The notes under the pieces: model-generated
Database searches by the model: none
Seen by the model: only the letters and a program-made list of their open reading frames with translations
Told to the model about the DNA's origin: nothing
Source of the DNA: Gemmataceae bacterium
GTDB taxonomy: Bacteria; Planctomycetota; Planctomycetia; Gemmatales; Gemmataceae
Reading direction: 5' to 3'
Length of the DNA stretch: 64,000 nt
Assembly: GCA_009697105.1 (NCBI GenBank)
Contig: SIAQ01000004.1
Span: 1 to 64,000, forward strand
Shown here: piece after piece, positions 60,281-64,000 of the stretch
Layout of the letters: each line of letters starts with the position of its first letter
Numbering within the stretch: the stretch's first letter is position 1
Program-made: the position numbers and the translations under genes

Positions 60281-61645
60281 GTGCCTTCCCAACATCGCAT
60301 TGGCGTTAATCGCCGTGAGTTCTTGCAAGTCGGATACTCCGGGCTGCTCGGCGTCGGATTGTCGTCGCTCCTCACCAAACGGGCGCAAGCGAACGAGACA
60401 CGCACGCCGAAATCGGTCATCATCGTTTTCCTCACCGGTGCACCGAGCCATCTCGATACGTTTGATCTGAAGCCCGATGCCCCCGCCGAGATTCGCGGCG
60501 AATTTCGGCCGACCGCCACGCGCGTGCCGGGGCTGCATGTCTGCGAACATCTGCCACGATTGGCGGCGCGTGCGGACAAATACGCTGTCGTGCGGTCGCT
60601 GTCGCATCGCGAGAACAACCACCTCGTGGCAACGCATCACGTACTCACCGGCCATCAACAACCCGGCGCGTTCTTCGACAAGGTCGCCTCCCGCGATGAT
60701 TGGCCGAGCTACGCCTCCACCGTCGATTACCTGCGGCCACGCTCTGACGGTCTGCCGAGCGGCGTCAACCTGCCGACGTTCTTGATGGAAGGCCCGCTCG
60801 TTTGGCCAGGCCAACACGCCGGTTTCCTCGGCCCGCGGTATGATCCCTGGCAGATCACCCGCGATCCGAATCGGCCCGGCTTCGGTCTCGACAGCCTGCG
60901 TCCCGCCGAAGGCATCGACGCCAGCCGACTCGACAATCGCCGGGCCTTGCTCGCCGAGGTCGATGCCCAGCAACGCCAGCTCGCGCGCTCGGCGGAAGGC
61001 CGGCGCTTGAGCGATCAGCAACAGGCAGCGTTCTCGATCCTCGCCTCGGGCCGAGTCGCTCGCGCTTTCGCAATCGATCACGAACCGACGGCGGTGCGCG
61101 ATCGCTATGGCCGACATGCGTTCGGGCAATCGCTGCTGATGGCGCGTCGGCTGGTGCAGGCGGGCGTGCCGGTGGTGCAGGCGAACATGGGCATCGTGCA
61201 GAATTGGGATTCCCACTCCGACAACTTCGGCCGGCTCAAGAACACGCTGCTGCCGCCGCTCGATCAAGGCGTCTCCGCGTTGCTCGACGACCTGGAGGCG
61301 ACGGGCCTGCTGGATGACACACTGGTGATGATGCTCGGCGAGTTCGGCCGCACGCCCAGGATTTTCGCCGTCGGCGCCGGCGCGATCCCCGGCCGCGACC
61401 ACTGGGCGCCCTGCTTCTTCGGCGTCTTCGCCGGCGCCGGCGTCCGCGGCGGCCAGCTGATCGGCCAATCCGACCGCATCGGCGCCTACCCGTCCACCAA
61501 CTCCTACTCGCCCAACGACATCGGCGCGACCGTCTACCACACCCTCGGCGTCAACCCCGGAGTCGAGGTGCGCGACCGCCAAAACCGCCCCGTCAACCTC
61601 AACGGCGGCGAAGTGATCCAGGCGTTGTTCACCGGCCGGGCGTAA
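60281..61645 (+). CDS. DUF1501 domain protein
   Basis: A 454-residue DUF1501 protein with Tat-like leader (NRREFLQVGYSGLLGVGLS). Family blocks FLTGAPSHLDTFDLKP, PAEIRGEFRPTAT, GVPVVQANMGIVQNWDSH, MMLGEFGRTPRIF and GRDHWAPCFFGVFAGAGV are complete. The start is GTG 60281 with GAGGAG six bases upstream. The end DRQNRPVNLNGGEVIQALF is repeated in a gene remnant at 62482. It is a paralogue of the broken gene at 54427 and the one at 40683. It lacks an adjacent DUF1549 gene. Confidence 0.93.
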   Translation: MPSQHRIGVNRREFLQVGYSGLLGVGLSSLLTKRAQANETRTPKSVIIVFLTGAPSHLDTFDLKPDAPAEIRGEFRPTATRVPGLHVCEHLPRLAARADKYAVVRSLSHRENNHLVATHHVLTGHQQPGAFFDKVASRDDWPSYASTVDYLRPRSDGLPSGVNLPTFLMEGPLVWPGQHAGFLGPRYDPWQITRDPNRPGFGLDSLRPAEGIDASRLDNRRALLAEVDAQQRQLARSAEGRRLSDQQQAAFSILASGRVARAFAIDHEPTAVRDRYGRHAFGQSLLMARRLVQAGVPVVQANMGIVQNWDSHSDNFGRLKNTLLPPLDQGVSALLDDLEATGLLDDTLVMMLGEFGRTPRIFAVGAGAIPGRDHWAPCFFGVFAGAGVRGGQLIGQSDRIGAYPSTNSYSPNDIGATVYHTLGVNPGVEVRDRQNRPVNLNGGEVIQALFTGRA

Positions 61646-62402: not shown

Positions 62403-62481
62403 GATGATGAACCTCCTGGGGTAATTTATTATAGCAATCAGACTTCGATCACGGTAGAGCAGATTCCCAGCATCAAAGTCG

Positions 62482-62549
62482 GCGACCGCCAAAACCGCCC
62501 CGTCAACCTCAACCGCGGCGAGGTGATACGGGCGTTGTTTGGGGCGTGA
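62482..62549 (+). pseudogene. Remnant copy of a DUF1501 3-prime end
   Basis: The sequence from 62482 repeats 61572-61631 of the DUF1501 gene with few changes. It encodes GDRQNRPVNLNRGEVIRALFGA and a stop, against RDRQNRPVNLNGGEVIQALF in the intact gene. No other DUF1501 sequence precedes it, so it is a duplicated tail separated from its gene by DUF29 and a small gene. Confidence 0.88.
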
Positions 62550-62619
62550 GGCGTAGTGATATAGGTTTTTTTTCTTATATAGTCGCTCATTGCCACGCCG
62601 ATTCACAAACAAACGAGAC

Positions 62620-62891: not shown

Positions 62892-62980
62892 GCGGTAGGG
62901 AGCGTCCTGCGTCAGCGCTGACGCACCAGCTACTTGCGGGTTCATGGTGCGTTGGCGCTGGCGATTGACGCACGCTACCG
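62892..62980. repeat. PAL-L inverted repeat
   Basis: Left arm 62892-62928 (CGGTAGGGAGCGTC... to ...GCACCA) and right arm 62945-62980 (TGGTGCGT... to ...GCTACCG) pair with several mismatches. The left arm contains the perfect 16-bp dyad GCGTCAGCGCTGACGC (62909-62924). It follows the SAP-like gene in the minus direction. Confidence 0.82.
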
Positions 62981-62983
62981 ACT

Positions 62984-63625
62984 TCAATACGCAATCGCAT
63001 CTCTTGCGATTTTCGTCGCAAAGACCTTTCGGCGAATCCCCTCAAGCACCTGTTCTCGCGTGGTTGTCGTCAGAATAACGCCAAACGCTTCGGCGGCACT
63101 CACCAATTCATCCACGGCAAGTGGCTTGGTCAACGCCATCAGGTCGGCTTCGATAGCAGCATAGTCCGCATCCGCGGCATCCGCGCGGTTTCTCAACTCT
63201 TGGAGACGACGGACCATGTCGGGCGTTTTCGATGATTGAAACTTCGCTCGAATCGCATCTACAATGTCCGTTTTCTTTCCCTTGGGCGAGATTTCGAGGT
63301 GGGTGCATAGTTCTTTGAGCTTGGGGACGGTAAGTTTGCCAACGGCTTTTAGCTTGTCGGCGAGAATCGGTTTTCCGACGCTCTCAAGCAATTCGGCCGC
63401 AAGTTTTTTTGTGCCACCGTCGGACGAATTGGACCATGCGCCCGTAAGTTCGTAGTCCTTTGCGCGAGTTAAAAATGCGACGAATTCGTCCGTCGATCTG
63501 TCCCGGAAGTGATCGAATACATCACACGCTTTTTCCCATTCCGTTACGACCTTCTGATTAGCGCCGGATTCCTTCAACGCTGGGACCAATGAACGAACTA
63601 TCTGTGACAATGTGCTCACTTTCAT
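62984..63625 (-). CDS. Hypothetical protein with a SAP-like motif, linked to a ParA-like gene
   Basis: A 213-residue, mostly helical protein. Residues about 96-128 (KLTVPKLKELCTHLEISPKG, then KKTDIVDAIRAKF) match the SAP motif, a short helix-extended loop-helix that binds DNA in other proteins. The rest has no recognised family. Base composition is lower in G+C than in the upstream genes, which hints at transfer. The start ATG 63625 overlaps the stop of the ParA-like gene as ATGA, with a GGAGGATGAGGA purine-rich leader. A DNA- or ParA-binding partner is a reasonable guess but unproven. Confidence 0.75.
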   Translation of the reverse strand: MKVSTLSQIVRSLVPALKESGANQKVVTEWEKACDVFDHFRDRSTDEFVAFLTRAKDYELTGAWSNSSDGGTKKLAAELLESVGKPILADKLKAVGKLTVPKLKELCTHLEISPKGKKTDIVDAIRAKFQSSKTPDMVRRLQELRNRADAADADYAAIEADLMALTKPLAVDELVSAAEAFGVILTTTTREQVLEGIRRKVFATKIARDAIAY

Positions 63626-64000
63626 TTCCTCATCCTCCCTAAAACTTCATCCATGAGTTTCGTGAATGTCTGCCCGAACTCTGGCGACAATAATGCGACG
63701 AATCGATTCCTCTGTAGTGCTTCAAAAAAACTCACTTTGTCTTGCTTGATCTTTGTCTCGAATACCGTTACCTTGCGCCCCCACGCCTCATCAATTCTCT
63801 TGTCTGCCATTTCTGCAATCATGTCTCGGTGAACCCTAATGAGTTGACCATTGTGAAACTTTACGCTGTTCGCCAATACTCCAAGCACCTCGATATGTTC
63901 AAGGACTTTGGCTTCCTTGAGCTTACGCATTTTCCGAAGGAGATTCGGTGCCGAAAGTGCGGCGAGCGAGTCGAGTTCAATCGGCACGATTGCAAAATCG
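63622..64000 (-). CDS. ParA-like ATPase, C-terminal part (cut by the window edge)
   Basis: The frame enters from the right edge and gives about 125 residues. DFAIVPIELDSLAALSAPNL resembles the segment after the second Walker-type motif of ParA/MinD ATPases (the pattern D-hydrophobic-P-x-x-P/L-x-S-L-x-G/S), and VLEHIEVLGVLANSVKFHN then VFETKIKQDKVSFFEAL matches the usual end. The ATP-binding P-loop would lie outside the window. The similarity is by eye and only covers the C-terminal third. ParA-type ATPases position DNA or large protein complexes. Confidence 0.6.
   Translation of the reverse strand, partial: DFAIVPIELDSLAALSAPNLLRKMRKLKEAKVLEHIEVLGVLANSVKFHNGQLIRVHRDMIAEMADKRIDEAWGRKVTVFETKIKQDKVSFFEALQRNRFVALLSPEFGQTFTKLMDEVLGRMRK

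Follow-up and report, generated by a model that had tools for sequence, protein, structure and literature searches.

The locus and its two proteins

The window (the whole stretch of DNA that was analysed, 64,000 nucleotides) comprises bases 1-64000 of contig C129 (103,348 bases). At its right edge, on the minus strand, lie two overlapping genes: a ParA-type ATPase gene that runs on past the edge and, directly downstream, a gene for a small partner protein (Table 1). The overlap reads ...AAATGAAAG..., with ATGA common to the stop of the ATPase gene and the start of the partner gene. Because the contig extends beyond the window, the truncated ATPase gene could be traced to the right within locus L009 (contig 60001-80000), where its open frame reaches contig position 65163.

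Table 1. Features of the two-gene locus in the window and in the adjoining part of the contig
Feature	Position	Strand	Remarks
Partner gene, 213 aa	62984..63625	-	4-nt overlap (ATGA) with the ParA stop
Partner C-terminal SAP-like motif, residues 154-207	63005..63166	-	Common to the partner family; profile A6
Partner canonical SAP domain, residues 96-126	63248..63340	-	Pfam PF02037
Partner N-terminal domain, residues 1-65	63431..63625	-	Predicted three-helix bundle, family-conserved; alignment A3, AlphaFold pLDDT 91-97
ParA-type ATPase gene, C-terminal 125 residues	63622..64000	-	Gene runs on past the right edge
Walker A KGGVGKT	contig 64450-64470	-	Within the continuation of the ParA gene
131-bp MITE, copy 1	contig C129 65056-65186 (L009 5056-5186)		Adds a TAG stop
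131-bp MITE, copy 2	contig C129 65426-65556 (L009 5426-5556)		Adds a TAG stop
Probable original ParA start, with ribosome-binding site and predicted transmembrane helix	contig 65561-65668

The ATPase domain is intact in the full upstream protein, which contains NLKGGVGKTT and LLDCPPRL and matches the Pfam families AAA_31 (E=1e-28) and CbiA (2.3e-18). The deviant Walker A pattern KGGxGKT with its signature lysine, the mark of the ParA/MinD (A/D) superfamily, is present as KGGVGKTT. A PHROGs search returned generic ParA matches only. In a tree of the ATPases, the window copy groups with sequences from genomes G016, G017 and G026 and not with those of the same-genus genomes G001 and G002. One of the latter, the G001 ATPase at L030 6507-7985, has the Walker A sequence KGGVGMT, in which the second lysine is replaced and the family pattern is otherwise unchanged.

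The partner is predicted to be a folded, helical protein (AlphaFold, mean pLDDT 88.6), with a bundle at residues 3-61, SAP helices at 100-109 and 118-129, and a C-terminal helix-loop-helix at 171-180 and 190-212. Its canonical SAP domain scores 27.3 bits against PF02037, above the gathering cut-off of 23.9, and it is the only partner to exceed that cut-off: in relatives the SAP-type motif stays sub-threshold (Rho_N/SAP/HeH). A second motif lies at the C-terminus. A profile of this motif from 24 partners (A6), built with the SAP region of the window protein left out, scores that region at 21-22 bits, and at E<0.05 its matches among the 2,596 ORFs of these loci are confined to partners. The same motif gives sub-threshold Pfam matches to Rho_N, SAP, HeH and FANC_SAP and, in the PDB, a match to the SAP region of FAN1 (E 0.005) among unrelated weak ones. 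From these comparisons we read the C-terminal motif as SAP-like and family-wide, with the window protein carrying two such motifs. Foldseek with the partner model gave weak matches that include the SAP proteins Ku70, DEK and T4 endonuclease VII, none with an E-value <0.001, and a direct search of the PDB with the partner profile gave no match. None of the partners has a ParB-like Pfam domain, the matches being SAP/Rho_N-like instead, and they are basic (pI at least 7.9 in 28 of 29). The N-terminal domain is likely to be the part that binds the ATPase.

The part of the pair inside the window has a G+C content of 0.501, against a window mean of 0.589 (s.d. 0.030), and just 1.2% of the window's 1-kb stretches fall below 0.501. 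Taken whole, the two genes have 0.509 and their flanks 0.606. In the loci of relatives the drop is mostly smaller or absent, so that it is largely peculiar to the window copy and suggests transfer. The sole other stretch of the window as poor in G+C (0.48-0.50) is 501-2000. Beside the partner stop codon lies an element of about 84 bp (62895-62978), related copies of which (71-85% identical) occur at about 20 sites in the genome, one of them at contig 68177-68260; its ends look inverted (GACGCACCA / TGGTGCGT). Further along is a remnant at 62480-62550, within which 62510-62539 is a copy, at 87% over 30 nt, of the 3′ end of a DUF1501 gene (61570-61645).

Much of what the preliminary description had proposed from the window sequence holds up. 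The ATGA overlap, the lowered G+C, the adjoining repeat island and the gene remnant are all where it had placed them, and its ParA call, made from a partial sequence, is confirmed by the P-loop that appears once the contig is extended. Its SAP motif in a 213-residue protein is borne out by the profile score, and it was right that this directly downstream partner is not the usual ParB. Neither of the findings that it had named as refuting it, a full upstream protein lacking Walker A or a profile search without a SAP match, came up. What it could not contain are the key features that lie outside the window: in the family, an N-terminal transmembrane helix and a coiled coil, and in this copy, the two MITEs that disrupt it.

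Insertions in the window copy of the ATPase gene

The called ParA frame begins within a 131-bp MITE, one of two copies in the gene that share 99% identity. The same element is present in about 32 copies in the genome, at 98-100% identity; the sites inspected are all 131 bp long, and a 4-bp NTAN duplication (TTAA, GTAA, CTAA, TTAG, TTAT, CTAC) borders nearly all of them. By its look, the 131-bp element is presumably a MITE that was active until recently and was mobilised by an IS630/Tc1-like transposase. The two insertions lengthen the gene by 135 bp each and keep the frame, but each brings in a TAG stop, and a frameshift is also present between the two copies. Upstream of both MITEs, a strong ribosome-binding site precedes an ATG (AAGGAGAGAAG-ATG) that opens MNQNWVAIIGPAVSAIVAVVSTLLFLGGILWWYIRR, a predicted transmembrane helix. 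This arrangement indicates an ancestral protein whose membrane anchor has since been split from the ATPase.

Judged from its sequence, then, the window copy is damaged: two MITEs and a frameshift part the transmembrane helix from the ATPase. An assembly error could account for the frameshift but is unlikely to account for the MITEs. At most, this copy could still give a soluble, re-started ATPase, for which TTG 65163 and ATG 64905 are candidate internal starts.

Anatomy and distribution of the family

The anchor that is cut off in the window copy is a regular feature of its relatives. In all untruncated relatives a transmembrane helix is predicted 88-256 residues ahead of Walker A, with Kyte-Doolittle scores of 1.6-3.0 (one of 1.2) in the order and of 2.1-2.6 in seven loci outside it. 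The window copy (through its MITEs) and two sequences cut by contig ends depart from this, and for L163 the only ATPase frame read was a disrupted one. In the AlphaFold model of an intact relative (L029), a continuous helix spanning residues 33-158 (about 125 residues) is followed by the ParA domain (mean pLDDT 85), and Foldseek matches this model to the Soj/ParA/McdA fold with E down to 5e-18. The ATPase domain also differs from ordinary ParA at a position implicated in DNA binding. In Caulobacter crescentus ParA, the stretch R221-x-V223-R224 binds nucleoid DNA, with R224 as a DNA contact (PMC7229837). The equivalent of R224 is arginine in only 3 of 30 family members, as against lysine or arginine in all 14 ordinary planctomycete ParAs taken as a control. 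DNA-binding basic residues vary between P-loop ATPases (PMC7229837), and the loss of the basic residue here does not exclude DNA binding through other positions.

The distribution of the pair was followed with searches for both proteins. A partner search found relatives in 11 of 149 genomes, the home genome counted, and in several of these the partner lies directly 3′ of a ParA whose N-terminus bears a hydrophobic helix. The ATPase profile is positive in 29 of 102 genomes of the order, with a clear gap between members (157-650 bits) and ordinary ParA (about 108), and the profile of the partner N-terminal domain is positive in 27 of the same 102. With a 20-sequence ATPase profile, 30 of 298 genomes of the class were positive, 7 of them outside the order. 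A first search of the phylum with a seven-sequence profile had found just the home genome above generic ParAs; this negative was discounted because the 20-sequence profile later found members in other orders of the class. A 343-genome sample of the phylum searched with the better profile again gave the home genome only, a weak negative because only four candidates were scored per genome. In a scan of genome contigs, the single match to the ATPase was in Larkinella, and it was rejected as a generic plasmid-type ParA with neither transmembrane helix nor partner. No partner relative was detectable in 72,556 plasmid records or in a scan of viral contigs, and the plasmid and phage matches to the ATPase cover just its generic domain.

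Where the family occurs, its two genes keep together. In all 38 loci examined (31 in the order and 7 outside; several families, one class), the 3′ end of the ATPase gene lies within the start of a homologous partner gene, the overlap being mostly 4, 32 or 35 nt. Since the pair is present in every relative examined, it is more than a chance juxtaposition. The distances between the ParAs and those between the partners correlate (Spearman 0.34, 1/2000 permutations), a correlation that also reflects shared descent. By these comparisons of gene order and sequence, the pair is a conserved, co-inherited two-gene cassette of Planctomycetia-type bacteria. It is also patchy, and hence not essential. A search for shared neighbours showed no gene that recurs beside the pair, and the neighbours scanned are mostly metabolic genes. 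Adjoining one pair is a gene (L178 5185-6522) that matches the candidate defence family PDC-M36A with E 7e-28. Stand-alone partner paralogues without an adjoining ParA are found at L024, L025, L027 and L028, in two genomes near an EF-Tu-like gene; three of the four genomes with such paralogues also hold a ParA-partner pair elsewhere.

Possible functions and comparison with known systems

Canonical ParA/MinD ATPases bind to the nucleoid or the membrane and leave it again in cycles, and in the usual ParA layout the nucleoid carries the ATPase and the cargo carries the partner. The reading that we prefer, though tentatively, is that a membrane-fixed ParA and a DNA- or cargo-binding partner form a switchable tether between DNA and membrane. 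Gene 1 would encode an ATPase of the ParA/MinD superfamily that a single N-terminal transmembrane helix anchors in the inner membrane, facing the cytoplasm, with the coiled coil holding the ATPase domain off the membrane. Gene 2, presumably coupled to it in translation through the overlap, would supply the small basic partner, whose N-terminal helical bundle would bind the ATP dimer of the ATPase and whose one or two SAP-like motifs would bind DNA. ATP-dependent dimerisation of the membrane ATPase would thus capture the partner and hydrolysis would free it, so that DNA (or a cargo bound by the partner) could be tethered to the membrane in a switchable way. On the best reading, this layout reverses that of canonical ParA systems. 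Some of it follows general rules for A/D ATPases, which work with a matrix, a dimer interface and a dedicated partner (PMC10241942). As a rule such partners touch the ATPase with an N-terminus that is charged and disordered (PMC10241942); the N-terminus of the partner here is instead predicted to be folded.

The main rival keeps the membrane and changes what is held: the pair could position a protein cargo on the membrane, much like McdAB, PomXYZ or ParC, with the SAP-like motifs binding a protein complex or RNA. SAP-like motifs are able to bind RNA or protein as well as DNA. The C-terminal motifs of the relatives, which stay under the SAP threshold, are compatible with such a role, and the partners of A/D ATPases are highly diverse and cargo-specific (PMC10241942). 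But the partners are almost all basic, their best domain assignments are to nucleic-acid binding, no conserved neighbour offers itself as a candidate cargo, and a fixed transmembrane anchor is unlike the freely diffusing positioning ATPases; we regard this alternative as unlikely, though deserving of serious attention. The patchy occurrence within genera and the varied neighbourhoods would also suit an anti-phage or other conflict system in which a membrane-bound ATPase is joined to a DNA-sensing partner, and the low G+C and the tree position apart from the same-genus ParAs, which suggest transfer, speak for it too. The window protein matches the PADLOC candidate PDC-M28B at profile positions 96-166 of 438 (E 1.5e-8), all 7 of the family members tested match it weakly, and one locus adjoins the PDC-M36A-like gene. 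A match to the whole PDC-M28B profile was not found, however: the window match takes in about 79 residues, the end of the coil and the P-loop, and so short a match could be generic ParA similarity. Other PADLOC matches were rejected as short or as coiled-coil noise. As most scanned neighbours are metabolic and no effector domain is present, a conflict system is an improbable account of the pair.

The preliminary description had itself suggested a partition module on an integrated element and had advised looking for centromere-like direct repeats nearby. A ParABS-type module left by an integrated plasmid or phage would explain the ParA fold, the overlapping downstream partner and the lower G+C. 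This idea was already weakened by the plasmid and viral searches, in which the partner has no match and the ATPase domain only generic ones, the partners show no ParB-like domain, and near the pair there is no parS-like or centromere-like repeat array, only the two MITEs and isolated short matches. The transmembrane anchor and the loss of the canonical DNA-binding basic residue also tell against a partition module, which is now very improbable. Least probable of all is a tyrosine-kinase-like regulator of polysaccharide with the Wzc/BY-kinase architecture, in which a transmembrane part precedes a C-terminal P-loop domain. The two parts do stand in the same order here, and there are weak matches to eps/Wzc models, but those to ParA/Soj models and folds have much higher scores, one transmembrane helix is followed by a coil, and the Pfam matches of the window ParA lack a Wzz domain; we give this explanation hardly any weight.

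A switchable tether between DNA and membrane stays the preferred reading. A stronger form of it, in which the pair represents a new class of ParA (an ATPase permanently fixed in the membrane, with DNA binding moved to the partner, acting as an ATP-switched nucleoid-membrane tether in planctomycetes), is possible but rather doubtful. The two-gene system was previously unnamed. In the open-access literature searched, no ParA was described that combines a transmembrane helix at its N-terminus with a SAP-like partner, which is not proof of novelty because only open-access papers were covered; a ParA review uses the word "transmembrane" once, for TipN, and a planctomycete proteome paper does not mention ParA. 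Planctomycetes are known for their heavily invaginated membranes. If the proposal is true, it would describe an inverted ParA mechanism and give a direct handle on how planctomycete DNA relates to these unusual membranes, and the pair is short, conserved and easy to test.

Among known systems, chromosomal ParA/Soj of ParABS (for example Thermus thermophilus Soj, 1wcv/2bek) shares with the family the ATPase fold and motifs, the signature lysine and a partner gene directly downstream, but the family has an N-terminal transmembrane helix and coiled coil, has lost the basic DNA-binding position, and is paired with a partner other than ParB, with no parS seen. McdA/McdB, which positions carboxysomes, likewise combines a ParA-like ATPase fold (6nop/6non) with a small non-ParB partner; McdA makes gradients on the nucleoid, whereas the ATPase here has a transmembrane anchor and a folded SAP-like partner, and no microcompartment genes were among the few neighbours scanned. 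MinD belongs to the same ParA/MinD superfamily and shares the membrane as the likely positioning matrix. Its binding to the inner membrane is reversible, as an ATP dimer (PMC10241942), in contrast to the permanent membrane contact predicted from the N-terminal transmembrane helix of the family. The BY-kinases (Wzc/CapB type) also place a transmembrane part before a cytoplasmic P-loop domain, and they differ in that the family belongs to another ATPase subfamily, has a long coiled coil and no Wzz domain, and is encoded with an overlapping SAP-like partner. On the side of the partner, Ku70, DEK, T4 endonuclease VII and FAN1 share the helix-extended-loop-helix motif, which here occurs once or twice in a small bacterial protein encoded together with a ParA.
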